From Rhodoferax sp. BLA1 (GTDB lineage: Bacteria > Pseudomonadota > Gammaproteobacteria > Burkholderiales > Burkholderiaceae_C), in NCBI RefSeq assembly GCF_013416775.1, contig NZ_SZVI01000012.1, positions 434,001 through 498,000 of the forward strand: 64,000 nt of DNA, read 5' to 3'. The position numbers and the translations under genes are program-made. Of the stretch, positions 3,877 through 42,115 are shown in pieces. The notes under the pieces were generated by a model. The model saw only the letters and a program-made list of their open reading frames with translations. It did not search any database and was not told the DNA's origin. Every line of letters begins with the position of its first letter. Positions within the stretch are counted from its first letter, which is position 1.

Positions 3877-4893
3877 TCAGACGGTTTCCGCAGCTTGTTC
3901 CCGTTGTGCATTTTTGGGCATGACCACCGATGACTCCTTAGCCGCTGTCCATGCGCTGCACATCTCTGGGGGCAAAGAGCTTTTGCGGTTCATCAAATCA
4001 TGTTGGGCAAATAACTCGGCAATCCAGTCCACAAAGACGCGTACCTTGTTGCTGAGGTGCCGGTTTGGCGGATAGACGATGTAGATCGGTTTGGCTTCGG
4101 TGCACCAGCCGGTGAACAAGGGCTCCAGAACACCGCTGCTGATGTGCTGCTGCACCATGAATGTCGAGGTAAACAGGACGCCCAGACCCGACAGACCCGC
4201 CACGACAGCCGCGCTGGAGTCATTCACCGCGAGTTGGTGTTGCCCGCCAACCTCAACCAGCTCGCCATCTTTTTGCATCTTGAGAGAAAACAGTTTGCCT
4301 GTCAGCGGCGACATATAGCCAATCATTTGATGTTCGTTTTTGAGTTCGTCCGGGTGTTGCGGCACACCATGGCGCTTAAGGTAGGCCGGTGAAGCACACG
4401 CCATGATGTAGAACTCCCCAATCCGCCGAGCCACCAACGATTGGTCGGTGATGGCGCCAGCGCGGACCACGCAGTCCACGTTCTCCGCCAGGAGATCGAC
4501 CGGTCGGTCGCTGACGCCCAGATGCAACTGGATGTCTGGATAACGCGCGTAAAAGTCCGGCAGCGACGGAATGATGACGGCCAGGCCCAGGGACGATGGA
4601 ATATCTACCTTCAATTTGCCACGCGGGCTGGCTTTGGCACGTGACATGCTGGCCTCAAGCTCATGCACCTCGTCCAGCAATCGGCAGGCTTGCTCGTAGT
4701 AGGACGCGCCATCAACGGTCACGGTGACTTTGCGGGTTGTCCGATTGAGCAACTTGGTTTCCAGCTCTTTTTCCAGATCCTGGATCAGGCGGGTGACCGT
4801 GGCTTTGGGCAGGTGCATCGAATCGGCGGCTTTGGTAAAGGTACCTGCCTCCACGACACGTACAAAAGCCTGCATGGCAGAGAACTTATCCAT
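3877..4893 (-). CDS. LysR-family transcriptional regulator, probable controller of the adjacent efflux operon
   Basis: A 338-residue LysR-type regulator. The N-terminal winged helix-turn-helix carries 'FTKAADSMHLPKATVTRLI', followed by the linker helix and an effector domain starting near 'GKLKVDIPSSLG'. The chosen ATG (4893) has AGGA about six bases upstream; a GTG nine codons further out (4920) also opens the frame but has poorer spacing. The C-terminal tail after residue 300 is longer than usual. It is divergent from the hydrolase/RND pump operon, the same arrangement as mexT-mexEF-oprN in Pseudomonas. It therefore probably activates the pump in response to a small molecule, and may repress itself through the inverted repeat in the shared promoter. 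Confidence 0.9.
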   Translation of the reverse strand: MDKFSAMQAFVRVVEAGTFTKAADSMHLPKATVTRLIQDLEKELETKLLNRTTRKVTVTVDGASYYEQACRLLDEVHELEASMSRAKASPRGKLKVDIPSSLGLAVIIPSLPDFYARYPDIQLHLGVSDRPVDLLAENVDCVVRAGAITDQSLVARRIGEFYIMACASPAYLKRHGVPQHPDELKNEHQMIGYMSPLTGKLFSLKMQKDGELVEVGGQHQLAVNDSSAAVVAGLSGLGVLFTSTFMVQQHISSGVLEPLFTGWCTEAKPIYIVYPPNRHLSNKVRVFVDWIAELFAQHDLMNRKSSLPPEMCSAWTAAKESSVVMPKNAQREQAAETV

Positions 4894-4962
4894 GGAAATC
4901 CTGTTGGGTTGAGGACTCACCTCAAACGGTTGAACGGTCAGGCCGCTACCAAGGTGGGTTGA

Positions 4963-4990
4963 TTGTTTCTTTTGTGAAACAAAGTATAAG
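4963..4990 (+). promoter_or_regulatory. Putative LysR operator and promoter of the efflux operon
   Basis: A perfect inverted repeat, TTGTTTC-N6-GAAACAA (4963-4982), lies between the divergent LysR and hydrolase genes. Its left arm overlaps a candidate -35 (TTGTTT, 4963-4968), and a candidate -10 (TATAAG, 4985-4990) follows with a 16-bp spacer. The layout suits LysR-type control, but binding by this regulator is inferred. Confidence 0.5.
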
Positions 4991-5074
4991 TAAATGGGCT
5001 ATTTATTGTTTTGCCTGGTGACTTTACATTCTGCCGCATCGCAACAAATGGGTGCCGCCTGACGGCTCAACCTG

Positions 5075-5983
5075 ATGCAAAGCCTTCACACCACCGCTCC
5101 AGAGATGTCTGCCGACCAGCTGCAAGAGGTGGATACACAGATCAACATTTTGCTGAATCGACCCTTGGCTGTGCGCATCTACCGCCTGCGCAAGGCTATG
5201 GTCGCCGCTGGGCCAACACCCTTGGTGATCCATTTTCATGGAGGTGCTTTTGTGGCCGGTTCACTCGATACCGGCTCCTGCATTGCGCGCCTGTTGGCCC
5301 AGGCCGGGGCGGTTGTTGTGTCGATCGACTATCCGCTGGCACCTGCCCAGCCTTTTCCTCAGGCGGTCGAGGCCGGATATGCGGCGCTGTTGTGGGCCTG
5401 GAAAACCCGCCACAAGCTGGTGGGTAAGGATGCGTTGTTTTTTGTCGCGGGTGAAGAAGCCGGGGGCAACTTGGCTGCCGCCGTCGCCCTGATGGCGCGC
5501 GACCAGCAGCATCCCGCATTGGCCGGGCAAATTTTGCTGTCTCCCATGTTGGACCCCTGCATGGCCACCGCGTCCTTGCGCCGTGCAGATGCCGGCCAAG
5601 TTGGCTGCCCTTGGGCCGATGGCTGGCATCAGTACCTATCGCGCCTGGACCAGGCCTGCCATCCCTATGCGGCACCGGGTACCGCTTTGCGCCTGTCTGC
5701 GCTACCACCGACTTTGTTACTGACTGCGCAAGATGACCCCTTGCGTGACGAATCGCTGGCCTATGCCAAACGCCTGCGTGGCGCCGGGCGCCTGGTGCAT
5801 GCCGCTGTGTTGCCTGGCCCAACCGGTTGGCCGGGCAGCTGTTTGCAGCCCACCAGACATGAAGCGAGTTGGGCGTCTGCCGTGCAGCAACAGTTTGGCG
5901 ATTTTTTCCAGAGTTTTTCAGGTCGTGTGGCGGAGGAATCCTCATACAAGCCCGTTTGTTCGCTCCCTGTTTCAGTTTCTTAA
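5075..5983 (+). CDS. Alpha/beta hydrolase fold protein of the hormone-sensitive-lipase type, predicted catalytically inactive
   Basis: A 302-residue protein of the HSL/acetyl-esterase branch. The oxyanion-hole motif HGGA is present at residues 55-58 ('VIHFHGGAFVAGS') and the fold continues through 'VVSIDYPLAP'. The nucleophile elbow, normally GDSAGG, reads GEEAGG (126-131), so the serine is replaced by Glu128. Near residue 250, where the family has an HGF-type histidine, the sequence is 'PGPTGWPG' with no His. Only the acidic residue region ('DDPLRDE') remains. The frame is open throughout, so this looks like a maintained pseudoenzyme. It leads the operon of an RND pump and ends 24 bp before the adaptor gene, suggesting a binding or sensing role, which is speculative. 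No convincing ribosome site precedes the ATG. Confidence 0.75.
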   Translation: MQSLHTTAPEMSADQLQEVDTQINILLNRPLAVRIYRLRKAMVAAGPTPLVIHFHGGAFVAGSLDTGSCIARLLAQAGAVVVSIDYPLAPAQPFPQAVEAGYAALLWAWKTRHKLVGKDALFFVAGEEAGGNLAAAVALMARDQQHPALAGQILLSPMLDPCMATASLRRADAGQVGCPWADGWHQYLSRLDQACHPYAAPGTALRLSALPPTLLLTAQDDPLRDESLAYAKRLRGAGRLVHAAVLPGPTGWPGSCLQPTRHEASWASAVQQQFGDFFQSFSGRVAEESSYKPVCSLPVSVS

Positions 5984-33744: not shown

Positions 33745-34869
33745 TCAGCCGGGTGTTGATGAGGGCCGGGGCAAAACCACGGTGGCCACCAGACCGCCGC
33801 TGGTCCCGTTCTTGAGCCGCACCTCACCGTGCAGGCGGCGTGCGATGTCGTTGGCAATCGACAGCCCCAGGCCCACCCCGCCGCTGTGGCGGTTGCGGGA
33901 GCCTTCGGCGCGGAAGAACGGTGTCAGTGCCCGGTTCAGGTCGGCCGCGGCCATGCCGGGGCCGGGGTCGCTGACCTCGATACACAGCTGGTTAGCCTCT
34001 TCAAAACAGCGCACCCGGGCCGAGCCGCCGTAACGCACCGCGTTGTCGACGATGTTGCTGATGCAGCGGCGCAGCGCCTGCGCCTGGGTCAGCAGGGGTG
34101 CCACCGGGCTGGATTGCTCAGGTTCAACCAGGGTCACCGGGTGGCCCCAGGACTGGTAGTCGTCAACCAGACTGCTTAGCAAGGAACCCACATCAAGCAA
34201 CACCATCGGTTCCCCCGAGGCCACACCGCGCAGGTGGTCCAGCGTGGCGGTGATCATGGTGTTCATCTCAGTGATGTCGCGCTGGAAACACAGGCGCTGT
34301 TCGGCATCCTGCAGGCTTTCGGCGCGTAGCGCCATACGCGTCAGCGGGGTGCGCAGGTCGTGTGAGACGGCGGCCACAAAGCTGTCGCGTTCGCTCAGTT
34401 GCTGGCAGATCTGGGCTTGCATCTGGTTGAAGACACGGGTGGCTTCACGGCACTCGTCGCTGCCTTGTTCCACCAGTGGCGCGCGGTGGATGTCGCGTCC
34501 CAGCTCACGCGCGGCGTCGGCCAATTGGCGCACCGGCTGCGCCAGCCAGCGTGCGCCAATCCAGGCCGCCACCATCAGTGCCAGCAGCCGTATCCCGATG
34601 TCCAGCCACAAACCCAGATGGGCTAGGCTGGGTGCTTCTCCGGGGCGCGGTGGCGGTGGGCCCATGTTGGGGCCGGTGAACGGGCCGGGTGGTGGCCCGG
34701 GGGGCGGGCCGTTGGGCATGGGGCCAAACAAGCTTGGGCCAACCTCAAACATCAGTTTGATCGCCAGCGCCTGGCTGATCAACACCGCCACACACAGCAG
34801 CAGGGCCAGGCGGCCAAACAGTGTGCTCGGCACCAGCCGACGCAGCAGCCCGATCAGCCGAAGTTTCAC
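33745..34869 (-). CDS. Two-component sensor histidine kinase (EnvZ-like)
   Basis: A 374-residue membrane kinase. First membrane helix at about 16-40; a periplasmic segment of about 45 residues is strikingly Pro/Gly-rich (four or more PPPGP/GPPP runs); second helix about 92-112. A HAMP-like segment follows, then the H-box 'AAVSHDLRTPLTRMALRAE' with the phosphoacceptor His, N-box 'ISNIVDNAVRYGG', and G-boxes 'VSDPGPGM' and 'GGVGLGLSIANDIA'. All catalytic motifs are intact. It overlaps the response-regulator gene by four bases. The stimulus is unknown; the short proline-rich loop makes a folded ligand pocket unlikely. Confidence 0.92.
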   Translation of the reverse strand: MKLRLIGLLRRLVPSTLFGRLALLLCVAVLISQALAIKLMFEVGPSLFGPMPNGPPPGPPPGPFTGPNMGPPPPRPGEAPSLAHLGLWLDIGIRLLALMVAAWIGARWLAQPVRQLADAARELGRDIHRAPLVEQGSDECREATRVFNQMQAQICQQLSERDSFVAAVSHDLRTPLTRMALRAESLQDAEQRLCFQRDITEMNTMITATLDHLRGVASGEPMVLLDVGSLLSSLVDDYQSWGHPVTLVEPEQSSPVAPLLTQAQALRRCISNIVDNAVRYGGSARVRCFEEANQLCIEVSDPGPGMAAADLNRALTPFFRAEGSRNRHSGGVGLGLSIANDIARRLHGEVRLKNGTSGGLVATVVLPRPSSTPG

Positions 34870-35594
34870 GCGACCTGACCCCGCTCAACCGGGGCGGTAA
34901 ACAGGTAACCGCGACCCCGGATGGTTTTGATCATGTCGGCCCCGTCGGGCGAGCCAGCCAATTTCTGGCGCAGCCGTGACACCAGCAGGTCAATGCTGCG
35001 CTCACCGGCGCCAGCCACATGGCCATGGGCGAGTTCGATCAGCTGGTCGCGGCTCAGCAAACGCCGAGGGGTGTGCAAGAAGCTGCACAGCAGACGAAAT
35101 TCGGCATTGGACAGGGCCACGGTGACACCGCTGGGTGCGTGCAGGCTGTGGTTCTCCGGGTTGAGCTTCCAACCGTTGAAACAAATCACATGGCCGCCGT
35201 CACGTCCTTTGATGGTGTTGTGGGTATTGGCACGGCGCAGCACCGACTGGATGCGGGCCACCAGCTCACGGGGCTCAAACGGCTTGGTGACATAGTCGTC
35301 AGCGCCGTTCTCCAGGCCCAGCACCCGGTCAAAATGGTCGGCGCGGGCGGTCAGCATGATCACCGGGATGGGTGAGTGTTGCCTGACTTCGCGTGTCAGG
35401 CTCAGGCCGTCGGTACCGGGCAACATCACATCCATCACGATCAGGTCGATGCGGTGGCGCTCCAGCTGGCGGCGCATGCTGTCGGCATCACATGCCACAT
35501 GGGTCACAAAGCCATAGGGCACCAGATAATCGGCCAGCAGGCGATTGATATCTTCGTCGTCGTCGACAATCAGTACCTGAAATTTGGAAGTCAT
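34866..35594 (-). CDS. OmpR-family response regulator
   Basis: A 242-residue regulator with a receiver domain ('VLIVDDDEDINRLLADYLVPYG', phospho-Asp in 'DLIVMDVMLPGTDGLSL', Lys in 'YVTKPFEPRELVARI') and a C-terminal winged-helix domain ('AEFRLLCSFLHTPRRLLSRDQLIEL', 'IDLLVSRLRQKL', 'IKTIRGRGYLFT'). It resembles OmpR in length and in the 'VRTIRGRGY' end. It is the first gene of the two-gene operon with the kinase. Targets cannot be read from the window; the FlgH-type operon upstream on the same strand is one neighbour worth considering. Confidence 0.94.
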   Translation of the reverse strand: MTSKFQVLIVDDDEDINRLLADYLVPYGFVTHVACDADSMRRQLERHRIDLIVMDVMLPGTDGLSLTREVRQHSPIPVIMLTARADHFDRVLGLENGADDYVTKPFEPRELVARIQSVLRRANTHNTIKGRDGGHVICFNGWKLNPENHSLHAPSGVTVALSNAEFRLLCSFLHTPRRLLSRDQLIELAHGHVAGAGERSIDLLVSRLRQKLAGSPDGADMIKTIRGRGYLFTAPVERGQVA

Positions 35595-35741: not shown

Positions 35742-36353
35742 TCAGTCACGCAGGGCTGAGCGCAATTCCGTGGCCTGGCCCAGCAGTTTCATTTTGAGCC
35801 CGGAATCGGCCGGCCGGTCGCCCAGCCAGATGTTGAGCAAAGCCTTGTAAAACGCCAAGTCGCGCAGTGGGGTGGTCAGCGGTTTGTTGTTGAGCTCCAC
35901 CAGCGTGCCGGTGCCGGGCACCCAGTCCAGCGTCAGAGTGTCGCCCTTGCGCAGGCCGTTGGACTGGCGTTCAATGGCCTGACCCAGGCGCATCATGTTG
36001 TCCAGGATGTGCGCCGGTACCGAGGCGCTCTCGGTCACCGCATACTGGCGCAACTCGTCGTTGAACTCTGCACCGCTGACGTCCCGCAACATGGCAATCA
36101 ACAGCCTTTTGGGGCCCTCGCCATGCAAGACCTCGCGGGTGGTGTCCTGGCGGTTGGGCAGGTACAGGCCCAGGGCGTAGACCTTGAAGATCAAACGCAT
36201 GCTGATGCCCGCCCCGTTGAGCCTGAGGTTTTTGCCGGCCACCTGGACCGACTCCTCCAGCGCCACACCGTCCATCTGCAGCGCGGCCGTGGCAGGCAGG
36301 CTGGCAGCCAGCCAGGACGCCGCTGTCAAGGTGGTTTTGAGAAATGTGAACAT
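35742..36353 (-). CDS. Secreted chalcone-isomerase-like protein
   Basis: A 203-residue protein with a cleavable signal peptide (about 1-22, ending 'LPATAA') followed by a chalcone-isomerase-like domain ('LRLNGAGISMRLIFKVYALGLYLPNRQD', 'VSGAEFNDELRQYAV', 'GDTLTLDWVPGTGTLVELN'). Bacterial members of this family are periplasmic, are not flavonoid enzymes as far as is known, and probably bind hydrophobic ligands. The ATG at 36353 has AAGGA nine bases upstream; the frame is open further 5' but that part is not family-like. It begins 19 bp after the FlgH-like gene and ends the operon. Confidence 0.85.
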   Translation of the reverse strand: MFTFLKTTLTAASWLAASLPATAALQMDGVALEESVQVAGKNLRLNGAGISMRLIFKVYALGLYLPNRQDTTREVLHGEGPKRLLIAMLRDVSGAEFNDELRQYAVTESASVPAHILDNMMRLGQAIERQSNGLRKGDTLTLDWVPGTGTLVELNNKPLTTPLRDLAFYKALLNIWLGDRPADSGLKMKLLGQATELRSALRD

Positions 36354-36372
36354 GGTTTTTTCCTTGAACCCA

Positions 36373-37062
36373 TTACCAAACGGACAGGGTTCTGCTGAGC
36401 ACCTTTTGCAGCCAGGTGCGTGAGGCAATCTCGGACGAGTCGCCCTGCGCCACCACTTCCAGGCGGGCATTCACCACATCGCTGGACTGAATGACATTGC
36501 CGTCCCGGATGTCACGCGGGTCGATCACACCTGAAAAGCGCAGGGTGCTGCCGCCCCCGTGCAGGGCAATGCTGCGTTGACCCGCCACCACCAGGTTGCC
36601 ATTGGCCAGCACATTGATCACCGAGGCGGCGAGTTGGCCGGTGAAACTGCTGTCGTTTTTGGCGGTGCCGTTGCCCTTGAAGGAGCTGCTGCCGGAGGCG
36701 GTGGCATCCTGGTTGAAGATGCCTGCCAGAGGGGAGTCCTCCCGAACGCCGGGTCCTTTGGACTTCAAGGACGTTTCCCGGCTGGCATCTTCCTTAACGG
36801 TGTCGCTGGCACTGAGTTTCTCCGAGATGTTCACCTTGACGGTGTCACCAATCGCGCGGGGTTTTTGCCGTCCGGTAAAGAGTGAGCCTGAACTGGCCTG
36901 GAACAGAGAGCCGGTGGTGACACGTTCCAGATTCGCCGGGCGGGCGATCGGCAGGGCCGACAGTGGCCCGGGTACGGTGGTGGTGGGTGCACTGGCACAG
37001 CCCAGCAACAGGCTGCTCAGGCTGAGTACCGCCAGCAGAGGGCGGGCAATGGGGGCGATCAT
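36373..37062 (-). CDS. flgH: Orphan FlgH-like L-ring lipoprotein
   Basis: A 229-residue lipoprotein homologous to flagellar L-ring protein FlgH (E. coli FlgH is 232 residues). Lipobox LLGC (Cys about 22). Family blocks are 'GSLFTGRQKPRAIGDTVKVNISEKLSASD', 'SSSFKGNGTAKNDSSFTGQLAASVINVLANGNLVVAGQRSIAL' and 'LRFSGVIDPRDI' followed by a conserved 'TWLQKVL' end. FlgH builds the outer-membrane ring around the flagellar rod. No other flagellar gene is nearby; its neighbours are a small lipoprotein, a low-complexity protein and a chalcone-isomerase-like protein. The ATG at 37062 has AAGGAG six bases upstream and overlaps the lipoprotein stop. A non-flagellar outer-membrane ring or pore is the inferred role. 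Confidence 0.85.
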   Translation of the reverse strand: MIAPIARPLLAVLSLSSLLLGCASAPTTTVPGPLSALPIARPANLERVTTGSLFQASSGSLFTGRQKPRAIGDTVKVNISEKLSASDTVKEDASRETSLKSKGPGVREDSPLAGIFNQDATASGSSSFKGNGTAKNDSSFTGQLAASVINVLANGNLVVAGQRSIALHGGGSTLRFSGVIDPRDIRDGNVIQSSDVVNARLEVVAQGDSSEIASRTWLQKVLSRTLSVW

Positions 37063-37637
37063 GATTGCTCCTTGGCTGGCTGGGTTGGTCGCTTGACTGG
37101 CTGCACCCCGGTGACCAGGACACTGACCACGGGTGCCAGCTTGTCCTGGGTCGAGGCCCATTTGCTGGTGAGGAAACCATCATCCAAGCGGTAGTGGCTG
37201 CTGGACAACACCCGACCTCGGTCGGTCTGCAAGGTCAGGGCGGCTTGGCTGATGTAGGCCTGATAACGCTCTGAATAGGGGGATATTCCCCACTCCATTT
37301 GGGCGCTGTAACGCAACCAGACCGGGCAATGGGGTGCGTTGATGGCGTTTTCATAAACCCGGCTGTCAATCCGGTGGGCACGCAGTGCCAGTTGCAGGGC
37401 GGGCACCACATCGGCGGTCTGGGTTTGCGGGTTGTATTCGATACACAAGCTGGTAAAACGGGCATGGGCGTGGTAGACCGTGTCACTGGCCTCGCCCGGC
37501 TCTGTCTGCAGGGAGCTGAAGGCCAACTGACCGGTGGCTTTGGTCAGCTCCCAAAGTGGCAAGGGACTCAGGATGGAGCAGCCCGACAAGGACAGGCTCG
37601 CCACCGCCAGTGCCACGGTGTGTCTGCGGGCAGCCAT
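37059..37637 (-). CDS. Hypothetical lipoprotein of the FlgH-containing operon
   Basis: A 192-residue predicted lipoprotein with a short signal peptide and lipobox LSGC (Cys about 20). The mature part ('FTSLCIEYNPQTQTADVVPALQLALRAHRIDSRVYE' and 'CPVWLRYSAQMEWG') suggests an alpha/beta fold with a Cys pair, but I recognise no family and give no function. It overlaps the FlgH-like gene by ATGA and begins one base after the stop of the low-complexity gene, so production with both is certain to be coupled. A periplasmic or outer-membrane partner of the FlgH-like ring is the simplest inference. Confidence 0.75.
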   Translation of the reverse strand: MAARRHTVALAVASLSLSGCSILSPLPLWELTKATGQLAFSSLQTEPGEASDTVYHAHARFTSLCIEYNPQTQTADVVPALQLALRAHRIDSRVYENAINAPHCPVWLRYSAQMEWGISPYSERYQAYISQAALTLQTDRGRVLSSSHYRLDDGFLTSKWASTQDKLAPVVSVLVTGVQPVKRPTQPAKEQS

Positions 37638-37638
37638 G

Positions 37639-38139
37639 TCAAACCATTTCGCTGAAGGTTTGTTTAACCGCCGCCGCGCCCAAGTTGGCGTACTCCGAGA
37701 TGCTGCTGGCGACTGAGCTCATGCCATCTGCCACCGAGGAGGCCGCATCACCGACGCCGTCCACAACCGATTCGGTTGCCTCGCTGATGCCATCGGCCAT
37801 CGAGGTGGCGGTTTCGCTGATGGCGTCCACACTGTTTTGCGCCAGGTCGGAGATGTCGGTGTACAGCTCGGTCAAGCCGTTCTCCACACTGTCAGCCGCA
37901 TCAGCGATGGCGTTCCCGGCATCGCTGAAGGCGTCACCAACGGCGTCGAAACCCTCGCCAGCGAGTTCACTGAGTTTGTTCAGGCTCTCGGCGCTGAAGG
38001 TGACAACGGCGCTGGCGGCATCGCTGATCTCATTGGCCACCGACGAGCCATAGGCCTTGGCAGAGTCGTAGACGGAAGACGTGGAACTGAGGGCCGTCGA
38101 CGACGGCATATAAGAAGTCACCGAGCTGATATTACTCAC
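37639..38139 (-). CDS. Low-complexity acidic Ala/Ser-rich amphipathic protein
   Basis: A 166-residue protein. Residues 1-35 are Ser/Thr/Tyr-rich ('SSVTSYMPSSTALSSTSSVY'). The rest is one long acidic amphipathic helix series with repeating blocks such as 'DAISETATSMADGISEATESVVDGVGDAASSVADGMSSVASS', broken into about 11-residue periods; Lys and Arg are almost absent. No classical signal peptide or cysteine. The GTG at 38139 is preferred over the ATG at 38145, because AGGAG abuts that ATG but is six bases from the GTG. It is the first and probably most highly translated gene of the FlgH-type operon. It may be an exported or surface protein; that is inference. Confidence 0.7.
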   Translation of the reverse strand: MSNISSVTSYMPSSTALSSTSSVYDSAKAYGSSVANEISDAASAVVTFSAESLNKLSELAGEGFDAVGDAFSDAGNAIADAADSVENGLTELYTDISDLAQNSVDAISETATSMADGISEATESVVDGVGDAASSVADGMSSVASSISEYANLGAAAVKQTFSEMV

Positions 38140-38145
38140 AATCAT

Positions 38146-38460
38146 CTCCTGGGGTTAAGTGGAAAAGGTGAGGAAATATTAGGGCTGCTGGTGAATGCTT
38201 AGCTTTTTATAAAAAGCATCAAAACGAGATACCTCGGTGCTTGAAAATAACTCCTTCATCCAAAGTTATTAAATTGGATATATTCGATGCCATCACTTAA
38301 CGCGATGCATATCTATTGGATAAATTGTTTCTGGTTGGACACAAAAGTATCGCCAAGGGGTCGACGTGTGAGGGCGAACAGGCCCGCTGCAAGGGGCCAA
38401 CGCAGGATGCGTCGGTGATCACCCCAGCTTGGGGGCGTTTGAGTGGCCGACCCCAGCAGC
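38146..38460. other. AT-rich promoter region upstream of the FlgH-type operon
   Basis: About 315 bp without a gene, much AT-richer than its surroundings. It holds a perfect 16-bp palindrome GCTTTTTATAAAAAGC at 38202-38217, close to where a minus-strand promoter for the operon would lie. No sigma-28-type flagellar promoter was recognisable by eye. Confidence 0.5.
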
Positions 38461-40281
38461 TCAGGCTTCCAGCCGGTAGTGCAGGCGCAAGTGCTGTTTG
38501 AACTGCTTGATGATCAGCAAAGCGTCCTTGAGCAGGTCGCGGTCGAGGGTGCCCAGGGTGTTGAGCTCAATCAGGTTGCTGATGGGTTGCCCGAGGGACT
38601 GTTGGCGCAGGTTGTTGCGCAGTTTCATTGCCATCAGCAAGTGCAGGGTTTCCACCAGATCACGCACCAGCGTTGTCGGTAACACCTGCCGGTGGGCCAG
38701 TTCCTGCAGGCGCTCGACCGTGCCCAGTAAGTCCAGTCGATGCTCCAGGGCCAGGGCGCGGGTGCCGTGCACGATCGGGAAGGTGCCGATTTTTTTCAGG
38801 TCAAAAGTCTCTGGCCCGCTGACCTGCAATTTGGTGATGCGGCTCCACCAACCTTGTGTGGGCTCGGCAAACTGGTCAATGGCGCTGGCCATGCGGGCCA
38901 TGTAAGACAGGCTGCCGGTGGCCAGATTCAGAGCATGTTCGCGGGCGTTGGTCAGCAGCGAGGCGTCGCCAGAAATGGCCCGGGCATCCAGAAAAATGGC
39001 CAGGTTCATCTTGCCTTCAGGGTCCGCGTTAAACAACCACTGGCCAATGGTCTCGCGAAAAGCCGCCAGGGGTTGGCACCACAGCGGGTTGGTGATCATG
39101 ATGTTGCCCGGGCAAGGCGGGTAACCAAAGGTCAGCAGGGCGGCACTGAATTGGCCGGTGATGCTGGCCAGATCCGCACAGCTGTAGCCATCGCGCAGCA
39201 GCAGGGCGTTATCCTGGTCGGTCTTGAGGATTTGTTCACTGCGGCCCTCGCTGCCCATCACCAGCAGGCAACTGTTTTGCAACAGCTCAGGCGGTGCCAG
39301 TAGCGACCACAGCCTGGCAAAAATCTGGCCATTGAGTTCACTCACCAGTTTGGAGATGATCTCGATGCGCATGCCACCACGCTGCAGCATCTTGATCGAA
39401 TCGTCCACCTGAATCGCCGCTGCGCGCAAGTCATCCACCGAGCGCGCCTGTTCCACCTGCAGCGTGATCAGGTGCGAGTGGTTGGACATGAAACTCATCA
39501 GATCGAGCTGGCTCAGCAGGCCCAGAACGGTGTCGCCGTCTTTCACCAGCACCCGGTGTACCCGGTGCCGCAGCATGATCAGCAGGGCCTCAAACAGCTC
39601 CGCCTCTGGCCCCAGTGTGATTAGATCAAAACGGGCCACATCCCTTATGGGCAATAGGTGGGGTGCTACAGGTTTTAATAAAGCGTCACGCAGGTCGGTG
39701 GTCGTGAACATGCCGATGCGTTCGACCCCCTGCTGCACATCACGCACCAGCGCGTTGGTTAATTTGTGCTGAGCCAGCAGGCGACACACCGCCACCACGT
39801 CGAGCTGACCGTCGACATAAAAGGGTTTTTGCAAATAGGCGTCTTTGACGCGCACCAGCATCAGCGACATCAGTTCGCGGTTGTGGTCAATGTCCTGGTC
39901 ATTGGCCAGATCGGCGGCCATGGTGGCAAACACCCGGGCACTGAAACGCGGGTTGTTGGCCAGCAACGGCATCAGGGTGGTTTTGGGGATCTGCCAGGCC
40001 AACACATCGTCCAGGGCCACCACACTGGCATGGTTGCGCTCGGTCAGCAACGCACGCCAGCTGATGGACTCGCCCGACGTCAACACATGCACATGTTCAT
40101 CTTCTTGCAGCTGGGCATGCCCGTCACGGATCACCCACAGATGCTGGGGTGTGCTGTCGGGCACCAGCAACCGGTCTCCGGCGGTGATGCGCACATGCAA
40201 CGCCACCTCGCGCAGCCGGGTTTGTTCGGTGGCGCTCAGCTCGTTGAAGGGTGCGGTATCAAAAGGAAAAATGAAAGACAC
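38461..40281 (-). CDS. DUF294-type nucleotidyltransferase-like protein with cNMP-binding and CBS domains
   Basis: A 606-residue cytosolic protein. Domains in order: cyclic-nucleotide-binding-like domain (about 10-125), paired CBS domains (about 150-275), a GlnD-like nucleotidyltransferase domain with 'VMGSEGRSEQILKTDQDNALLL' (GS...R and DxD motifs present, about 345-370), and the DUF294 C-terminal helical substrate-binding domain. Such proteins are found beside acetate and other SSS symporters and are thought to regulate them; the reaction is unproven. I chose the GTG at 40281; a TTG at 40293 would start inside the upstream terminator's T-run. It follows actP but is separated by that terminator. 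A 623-residue paralogue lies at 47566-49437. Confidence 0.88.
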   Translation of the reverse strand: MSFIFPFDTAPFNELSATEQTRLREVALHVRITAGDRLLVPDSTPQHLWVIRDGHAQLQEDEHVHVLTSGESISWRALLTERNHASVVALDDVLAWQIPKTTLMPLLANNPRFSARVFATMAADLANDQDIDHNRELMSLMLVRVKDAYLQKPFYVDGQLDVVAVCRLLAQHKLTNALVRDVQQGVERIGMFTTTDLRDALLKPVAPHLLPIRDVARFDLITLGPEAELFEALLIMLRHRVHRVLVKDGDTVLGLLSQLDLMSFMSNHSHLITLQVEQARSVDDLRAAAIQVDDSIKMLQRGGMRIEIISKLVSELNGQIFARLWSLLAPPELLQNSCLLVMGSEGRSEQILKTDQDNALLLRDGYSCADLASITGQFSAALLTFGYPPCPGNIMITNPLWCQPLAAFRETIGQWLFNADPEGKMNLAIFLDARAISGDASLLTNAREHALNLATGSLSYMARMASAIDQFAEPTQGWWSRITKLQVSGPETFDLKKIGTFPIVHGTRALALEHRLDLLGTVERLQELAHRQVLPTTLVRDLVETLHLLMAMKLRNNLRQQSLGQPISNLIELNTLGTLDRDLLKDALLIIKQFKQHLRLHYRLEA

Positions 40282-40295
40282 GGTAGCTTTCAATC

Positions 40296-40333
40296 AAAAA
40301 AAGGGCTGCAGACAGTAGCGCCAGCAGCCCTTT
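40296..40333 (-). terminator. Rho-independent terminator of actP, derived from a repeat-like sequence
   Basis: A 10-bp stem, AAAGGGCTGC (40300-40309) with GCAGCCCTTT (40324-40333), is followed on the minus strand by a T-run. The DUF294 gene begins immediately after it, so it may act as an attenuator between actP and that gene. Its AAAGGGCT arm and adjacent TAGCTTT recall the hairpin-repeat family. Confidence 0.8.
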
Positions 40334-40384
40334 GAACGGATGACCTCGCTAGCCAAAGAGGCTGAGGCGAGGCTTTATCTGTCG

Positions 40385-42115
40385 TCAGTGGCCGGACGCA
40401 CCTGAGGCACCGATGCCGGTTTCCGAGCGCACTTGCTGCGCCAGGAAACCATCGCGGTCTTTGGCAGCACGTGCACTCTTGTCAAGCACCGAAAACAGCC
40501 AGATGCCAACAAAACCGATGGTCATCGAGAACAGCGCCGGTGAGGTGTACGGGAACAGGGCCGAACCTTTGGGGTTACCCAGCGTGGCTTCCCACACCGA
40601 AGGTGACACCACCGTCAGGGCAACGGATGAGATCAGGCCCAGAAAGCCACCGATCACCGCACCTTTGGTGGTGCAATCTTTCCACAGCACCGACATGAAC
40701 AACACCGGGAAGTTGGCCGAGGCCGCAATCGCGAAGGCCAGCGACACCATGAAGGCGATGTTTTGCTTCTCGAACACGATGCCCAGCGTCACCGCCAGAA
40801 TGCCCAGGCAAATGGTGGTGATTTTGGAGATGCGCAACTCGTCGGCACTGTTGGCCTTGCCTTGTTTGATCACGGTGGCGTAAATGTCATGCGACACAGC
40901 GGACGCCCCTGAGAGGGTTAGGCCCGCCACCACCGCCAGAATCGTGGCAAAAGCCACCGCCGAGATGAAGCCCAGGAACACATTGCCACCCACGGCGTTG
41001 GCCAGGTGGATCGCCGCCATGTTGCCGCCGCCACGCAGACCACCCTTGACCGGGTCAAGAAACTCGGGGTTGGTCAGCACAAAAGTGATTGCACCAAAAC
41101 CAATGATGAAGGTCAGCAGGTAGAAGTAGCCGATCCAGCCGGTGGCCCACATCACCGAACTGCGTGCCGCTTTGGCACTGGGCACGGTGAAGAAACGCAT
41201 CAGGATGTGGGGCAGGCCAGCGGTACCAAACATCAGCGCCATACCAAAGCTGATGGCCGAGATCGGGTCCTTCACAAAGTTGCCCGGTCCCATGATCGAC
41301 TGGCCGGCCGCTGCTGCCACTTCGGCAATCTTGCCGTCTTTGAGCGCCAGGTCGGTCTTGATCTGTACCGCAGAGGCAAACATGGCTTCGGGGCTGAAGC
41401 CGAAATGCCACAACACCGACAGCGCCATGAAGGACGCCCCACCCAGCAGCAAACAGGCCTTGATGATCTGCACCCAGGTGGTGGCGGTCATGCCACCAAA
41501 CAACACGTAGACCATCATCAGTGCGCCGACGATGATCACCGCAATGTAGTACTCCAGACCAAACAACAGCTTGATCAGCTGGCCTGCACCCACCATCTGG
41601 GCGATCAGGTAAAACGCCACCACCACCAGCGTGCCCGAGGCCGCAAAAATGCGGATCGGTTTTTGCTCGAAGCGAAAGGCCGCCACGTCAGCAAAGGTGA
41701 ACTTGCCCAGGTTGCGCAGACGCTCGGCCATCAGGAAGGTGATGACGGGCCAGCCCACCAGGAAACCGATGGAGTAGATCAGGCCGTCGAACCCGCTGGC
41801 CATCACCGCCGCAGAAATACCCAGGAAGGATGCCGCCGACATGTAGTCGCCAGCAATCGCCAGACCGTTCTGAAAGCCGGTGATGCCGCCACCTGCGGTG
41901 TAAAAGTCAGCGGCCGATTTGGTTTTGGCGGCTGCCCACTTGGTGATGAACAGCGTCATGACCACAAAGGCGCCAAACATGCTGATGGCCGTCCAGTTCG
42001 TTGCCTGTTGTTGCGCCTGGCCCAGATCGGCGCCCGCAGACCAGGCGGCCGCCGACACGCCAAGCAGCGCTGCCAAGATGGCAATTTGTCGGGTGGTATC
42101 GTTTTTGAACCTCAT
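40385..42115 (-). CDS. actP: Cation/acetate symporter ActP
   Basis: A 576-residue sodium:solute symporter. A signal-like first hydrophobic stretch is followed by about 13 membrane helices. '[29 protein letters not shown]' is the acetate-permease signature, and '[30 protein letters not shown]' the SSS core signature. It imports acetate and other short carboxylates. Its ATG overlaps the stop of the DUF485 gene by four bases, the conserved yjcH-actP arrangement. The operon is divergent from a second SSS operon over a 250-bp promoter region. Confidence 0.95.

Follow-up and report, generated by a model that had tools for sequence, protein, structure and literature searches.

The L-ring is generally regarded as an invariable component of each flagellum, encoded by one gene, and the accessory rings formed by FlgO/FlgP/FlgT and by FapH are not known to replace FlgH. 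The FlgO/FlgP/FlgT H-ring of Vibrio is an accessory ring of the flagellum at the outer membrane. In the present analysis, we studied a 64,000-nucleotide stretch of the genome of Rhodoferax sp. BLA1 (contig NZ_SZVI01000012.1, positions 434,001 to 498,000 of the forward strand; hereafter the window), in which a gene for a divergent FlgH, here called C, lies in a compact cassette with three further genes, A, B and D. The closest described protein is the flagellar L-ring protein FlgH itself (PF02107; Salmonella structures 7BGL and 7CLR), for which a study of the LP-ring describes residues Ile30-Phe31 and Leu44-Phe45 as plugging into two pockets of the P-ring protein FlgI (PMC8298488). In Shewanella piezotolerans, FlgH2 of the lateral flagellum is 36% identical to FlgH1 and compensates for its loss (PMC5178100), and FapH of Helicobacter pylori is described as forming an outer-membrane lipoprotein ring of the flagellum (PMC11756786). 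C resembles FlgH in belonging to the same family, in being a lipoprotein and in carrying the same FlgI-docking anchors, but it differs in that it falls in a separate clade, scores below the equivalog cut-offs, lies outside flagellar clusters, is co-operonic with A and B and has regulators nearby. As with FlgH2, we are dealing with a second FlgH of similar divergence (34% identity to the canonical FlgH of the host here); unlike FlgH2, which is one component of a complete second flagellar system, the FlgH of the cassette comes without a flagellum of its own. The small outer-membrane lipoproteins near the L-ring, as in FapH and the Vibrio H-ring, are a possible model for B. Based on sequence comparisons, we estimate at about 60% the probability that the cassette supplies the ordinary flagellum with an alternative L-ring under regulation of its own, working with new partners; it is a FlgH with new partners and not a new class of machine. 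We found no description of such a FlgH cassette in the titles and abstract openings of the open-licence papers that our searches listed, nor in passages of PMC13063649 and PMC11673145.

All four genes of the cassette are on the minus strand, with A (37639..38145) encoding a 168-residue acidic protein whose serine-rich N-terminus is followed by 11-residue amphipathic repeats, B (37059..37637) a 192-residue lipoprotein with the lipobox LSGC and Cys20, C (36373..37062) the 229-residue FlgH paralogue that we propose as an alternative L-ring subunit, and D (35742..36353) a secreted 203-residue chalcone-isomerase-like protein. A and B are separated by one base, B and C overlap by four (ATGA), and C and D lie 19 bases apart. 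An initial annotation of the window had described four coupled minus-strand genes with junctions of 1, 4 and 19 bases, starting with an acidic protein and ending with an FlgH homologue and a chalcone-isomerase-like protein, with no flagellar gene nearby. These statements are borne out by the coordinates, by the composition of A (25 D+E and 3 K+R among its 168 residues), by the matches of C to PF02107 (147 bits, cut-off 27) and of D to PF16036 Chalcone_3 (130.7 bits, cut-off 27), and by a tblastn search of the whole window (E 1e-3) in which, among the products of 18 open reading frames of the flagellar cluster of the host, FlgE to FlgL included, only FlgH found a match, namely C. With no flagellar neighbor in the window, C is not a gene inside a flagellar cluster. 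The same annotation had called B a lipoprotein of no known family; the lipobox upholds the former, whereas the latter has to be qualified in part, as B matches NCBIfam NF040519 (Sbal_3080 lipoprotein) at 4.7e-13 and 49.7 bits, below the cut-off of 80, and is a distant relative of that family.

C aligns with solved L-ring proteins at an E value of 1.6e-31 and falls below every FlgH equivalog cut-off of NCBIfam (best 143.6 bits vs. 280). By eye it carries the lipobox LLLGC of a predicted lipoprotein, and a script pattern recovered a lipobox in 41 of 46 relatives. Whether the host has a separate flagellar flgH was a question raised by the initial annotation; it has two FlgH proteins, the second one encoded intact on another contig in the order flgF-flgG-flgH-flgI, and C is therefore an extra FlgH. 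Of 60 sampled genomes of the genus, 4, the host among them, carry C itself or an orthologue close to it (81-100% identity), each with two FlgH and one FlgI. Among plasmid records, 77 contained a match to C, all below 60% identity and at 29-38% among the 30 matches listed. Six genomes of the genus (loci L103-L108; genomes, loci and genera are given by our G, L and g handles) harbor a second divergent FlgH, only 26-30% identical to C, which likely belongs to second flagellar systems.

FlgI was present in all 56 cassette genomes (45 plus 11 further ones, counting G343, in which C is unreadable; one of the 46 genomes first checked, G124, was set aside, with no FlgH beside its B-like gene), as compared with 320 of 399 genomes of the family overall. 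That all 42 cassette genomes of the family sample carry FlgI corresponds to a hypergeometric P of 5e-5, a value that ignores relatedness. In 40 of the 45 and in 11 of the 11 genomes, the number of FlgH matches equaled that of FlgI matches plus cassettes, indicating that no cassette brings its own P-ring. The five exceptions, comprising four genomes of genus g139 and G343, are each one FlgH short, and each has no flgH between flgG and flgI.

Normally, flgH and flgI are adjacent. In all four g139 genomes examined, flgG adjoins flgI without an intervening flgH, at a TGATG junction in which the stop codon overlaps the start, with flgJ, flgK and flgL downstream; flgE and flgF are visible in three of them, while the fourth contig ends inside flgG. 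The cassette FlgH is the only FlgH in G197 and G408, and the other two genomes, G280 and G349, have one further FlgH, in a second flgHI pair. G197 encodes a full-length FlgI, which from its residue 33 onwards can be matched to the solved P-ring protein right to the end. In G343 (genus g125), flgG is likewise followed by flgI without flgH, and no FlgH match was found in the readable sequence, C being unreadable after B; B occurs in 3 of 80 genomes of g125, and G486 and G513 carry the cassette plus one canonical flgH beside flgI. Across the family, FlgI without any FlgH match was seen in G196, G332, G340 and G343. In G196 and G332, which lack the cassette, flgI is at a contig end; G340 (L148), also without the cassette, has flgI, flgJ, flgK and flgL and no match to FlgE, FlgF or FlgG (1e-20) or to FlgH in the 8.6 kb upstream, which looks like partial flagellar decay, not a clean loss of a single gene. 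Six other non-cassette genomes had more FlgI than FlgH matches (G062, G163, G284, G299, G347 and G369); FlgI is split into two frames in G062 and G163, flgH is present beside the main flgI in G284, and the extra flgI of G369 is on a 5-kb contig. By Fisher test, the difference between cassette and non-cassette genomes (5/42 vs. 3/278) has a P of 0.0013, with the related g139 genomes counted separately and true events being two.

Several further arrangements of flgH and flgI were encountered. One more FlgH than FlgI match was seen in the non-cassette genomes G099, G133 and G395, mostly owing to fragments; in G133, a whole FlgH (contig C157:11454-11987) is on a contig without an FlgI match in a genome without B, and the one FlgI of this genome is elsewhere, beside an FlgH fragment. 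In genus g31 (G362 contig C12:1093716-1100275 (L146), G089, G295 and G421), flgH and flgI are about 2.5 to 6.6 kb apart.

The residues that dock FlgH onto FlgI are also retained. The outer-pocket anchor is kept in 58/58 cassette FlgHs and the inner one in 54/58. Taken together, the presence of FlgI in every cassette genome, the loss of flgH in five of them from two genera, the retention of the FlgI anchors, the absence of a P-ring brought by any cassette and the Shewanella precedent of one FlgH replacing another argue for a flagellar role, to which one cassette adjoining a flagellar cluster (G228, see below) adds weakly. If this is true, the outer-membrane bushing of the flagellum would be exchangeable, since an extra FlgH is co-operonic with two conserved partners, recurs in six families and is the sole FlgH in some genomes beside an otherwise complete flagellar cluster. 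The genomes of g139 would then be natural experiments on why a cell changes the outer-membrane crossing of its flagellum, a question also open to simple genetics.

A search for B among 399 family genomes (141 genera) gave matches in 43 genomes and 23 genera. A FlgH-like gene adjoins B at 43 of 45 family places outside the host genome, a recurrence which renders the linkage more than chance; at the two places where no such neighbor was seen, the flanking sequence is unreadable (L071) or the match is a weak, generic lipoprotein match (L099). In a sample of 260 genomes across the order, the B profile matched 15. Besides the host itself, these were nine genomes that belong to five other families and have a FlgH-like gene in the vicinity, and five whose matches are weak and have no such neighbor. 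This puts the cassette in six families of the order. Weak-scoring relatives without a FlgH neighbor do exist (L099, L170-L174), and B does not reach the cut-off of the Sbal_3080 family (NF040519). B and C are on opposite strands in 7 of the 9 genomes from other families and at one locus of the own family. Among 57 loci (46 first loci, including the window, and 11 added later), a profile from ten A seeds found an A neighbor at 46 (36 of the 47 non-seed loci) and no A-like gene further off, and D is present at 13. Given 46/57 for A vs. 13/57 for D, A-B-C forms the conserved core and D an accessory; of the four-gene order whose conservation the initial annotation had proposed to test, A-B-C is conserved, with D outside the core. 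The ratio of nonsynonymous to synonymous substitution rates (dN/dS) between the window and two relatives was lowest for D (0.08-0.09), intermediate for B and C (0.14-0.25) and highest for A (about 0.42). As judged from these comparisons, the A-B-C module is real, conserved and under purifying selection.

The cassette FlgHs also group together in phylogenetic trees, as the initial annotation had proposed to examine. In a first, quick tree that gave long-branch warnings, 47 cassette rows were on one side of a branch with a support of 100 in the Shimodaira-Hasegawa-like approximate likelihood ratio test (SH-aLRT). In a second, careful tree, which took 25 of the 47 family cassette rows, 36 cassette FlgHs, including those of other families, fell into one clade with a support of 97/96, whose nearest outsiders are FlgHs of the main-cluster type from other families within the order. 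The FlgHs of second flgHI pairs (L120, L121, L151, L152, L182 and L196), along with L103 and L105, belong to a different clade. Two B-C cassette copies each were seen in G095, G344 and G405 (L079/L089, L084/L095 and L088/L096, respectively).

The initial annotation had favored a different explanation, namely that the FlgH fold and the lipoprotein B make up a ring or pore in the outer membrane for a non-flagellar structure, for instance to export or display A by a logic like that of curli export. This idea is in keeping with the operon-like arrangement of A, B and C in most family loci (A at 46/57), with the regulators nearby, with the separate location of the cassette in 58 of 59 wide loci, with the canonical flgH that most hosts keep and with the separate clade of cassette FlgHs; against it stand the presence of FlgI in 56/56 cassette genomes, the conserved FlgI anchors and the loss of canonical flgH in five of these genomes, and the conserved module includes no inner-membrane exporter, with A, lacking a signal peptide by eye, having no obvious route to an outer-membrane pore. 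A non-flagellar structure is thus possible but less likely than an alternative L-ring, and we regard it as rather unlikely overall; with FlgI always present, the docking residues kept and flgH lost in g139, it is not the best reading of the locus. The initial annotation had also named a finding that would speak against its proposal, a genome whose only FlgH is the one in the cassette and whose flagellar cluster is otherwise intact; this is what we see in relatives (2 of 4 g139 genomes), although not in the genome studied here.

Less probable still is that C is simply a redundant back-up copy of FlgH, without a role of its own, which persists since it occasionally stands in for the main copy. 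By count, most hosts do have the canonical copy, and the losses in g139 and G343 could reflect relaxed redundancy, but a mere spare would hardly account for the purifying selection seen in all four genes, for regulators nearby or for the B-C adjacency at 43/45 family loci and in five other families, all in one clade. We consider it highly improbable that the cassette is what remains of a second flagellar system of the lateral type after the loss of its other genes. Second flgHI pairs do occur in several relatives, but the FlgHs of these pairs form a different clade from the cassette FlgHs, four genomes (G134, G315, G280 and G349) have both a cassette and a second pair, and no flgI stands beside any cassette, the nearest being 9.7 kb away (G228) and having its own flgH. 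A second flagellar system was rejected on the basis of the FlgH tree and the absence of flgI beside the cassette, which has no flgI, rod or hook genes of its own.

Returning to the alternative L-ring, a number of observations weigh against it. Going by the counts, canonical flgH is retained in 51 of the 56 cassette genomes, and the cassette FlgH is therefore usually dispensable for the ring. The losses of flgH are two events only, the pairing of flgH with flgI was checked in only part of the 278 non-cassette FlgI genomes used for comparison, and re-recruitment of FlgH in g139, or a failing flagellum in G343, is conceivable. As for the anchors, most family cassettes have the inner one shifted by a single alignment column, and 4 of 47 (L059, L060, L061 and L062) are without it. 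The same patterns applied to canonical FlgHs of the family found the outer anchor in 42/42 and the inner one in 21/42; with only half of canonical FlgHs matching, this inner pattern is not strictly required. Conservation also extends to other positions of the FlgH chain (P13, P18 and G28), so that the anchors are not the sole constrained sites, and the inner-surface charges of Salmonella FlgH are mostly lost in cassette FlgHs, with canonical FlgHs here also being without most of them. Upstream of A, sigma-28 and sigma-54 patterns were found at 0 of 46 loci (0.02 and 0.14 expected by chance), in a weak test whose patterns were strict and run with no positive control. Finally, in a tblastn search with the 18 host proteins, FlgH was the sole flagellar gene seen close to the cassette at 58 of the 59 wide loci, L063 and L071 giving just a generic sigma-factor similarity.

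In the remaining wide locus, L221 of G228, some 2 kb separate the cassette (3930-5955) from the side of the main flagellar cluster on which flgN, flgM and flgA lie (flgM 8362-8042; flgE to flgL from 11148), with dcd and two other genes in between (gene names assigned from the sequences). The gene order is rearranged here, B and C being convergent and A following on the far side of C, and in the second tree the FlgH of this locus is the first to branch off among those of the family cassettes. A single flagellar-adjacent locus among 59 could be attributed to chance.

Assuming that C does act in the flagellum, we surmise that it would be exported to the outer membrane as a lipoprotein and assemble on the P-ring (FlgI) in place of canonical FlgH, via the same two hydrophobic anchors. 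B may be a dedicated outer-membrane lipoprotein partner of the C ring, acting at the ring like the accessory lipoproteins of other motors, and A, an amphipathic repeat protein co-produced with B and C, might either bind membrane by its repeats or leave the cell through the flagellum. With regulators nearby, of the OmpR two-component type here and of the Crp type elsewhere, a cell could exchange its ring or gain another one depending on conditions. All of this is inferred: that C is located in the flagellum, that the swap is regulated, and what A, B and D do. One may even speculate that, in a regulated swap of L-rings, the cassette remodels the outer-membrane crossing of the flagellum, in that A (exported by the flagellum or membrane-bound) and B surround a C-type L-ring with a collar or a structure like a sheath, and one flagellum would then have two alternative outer-membrane passages, but we hold this more elaborate scenario to be doubtful.

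What is seen of the partner proteins is as follows. An 11-residue hydropathy period marks a long amphipathic helix, and such a period is strong in ten A proteins, including that of the window (mean autocorrelation of 0.465 at lag 11 vs. about 0 in shuffled sequences). No signal peptide was seen by eye at the N-terminus of A, which looks like a putative export signal. A scored 21.9 bits against Phasin (PF09361), below the cut-off of 24.9, in a comparison in which the repetitive nature of A has to be considered. In an alignment of 33 B proteins, two cysteines (65 and 104) are invariant; a profile of these proteins found no solved relatives (best E 0.1), and none of the Pfam matches among the 33 members was convincing (best E 0.042). 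AlphaFold2 models of B (2 sequences) and of C (3 sequences) had a mean predicted local distance difference test score (pLDDT) of only 32-33, rendering them useless.

As to regulation, an OmpR-type response regulator gene (34866..35594, minus strand; PF00072 and PF00486) adjoins the cassette in the window and is a possible regulator of it; the gene of a sensor histidine kinase (33745..34869, minus strand) overlaps it. Within 3.5 kb of C, OmpR-type homologues (E <1e-5, not necessarily orthologues) are present at 24 of 57 loci, and histidine-kinase homologues are near C at 12 of 57. A Crp/FNR-type regulator, with a domain binding cyclic nucleoside monophosphates (cNMP) and an HTH_Crp match below the cut-off, is near the cassette at 14 of 57 loci (e.g., L074:7971-8744). 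The presumed promoter region of the cassette (38146..38460, minus strand) contains two copies of TATCCAAT upstream of A (38322-38315 and 38280-38273, minus strand), and the region is partly conserved in L101; the pair is a possible response-regulator site. Upstream of the cassette, positions 38461-42115 of the window encode a DUF294/CBS/cNMP-binding protein and a transporter resembling acetate permease; among the wide loci scanned, both genes are beside the cassette only in L101 and L102 of the same genus.

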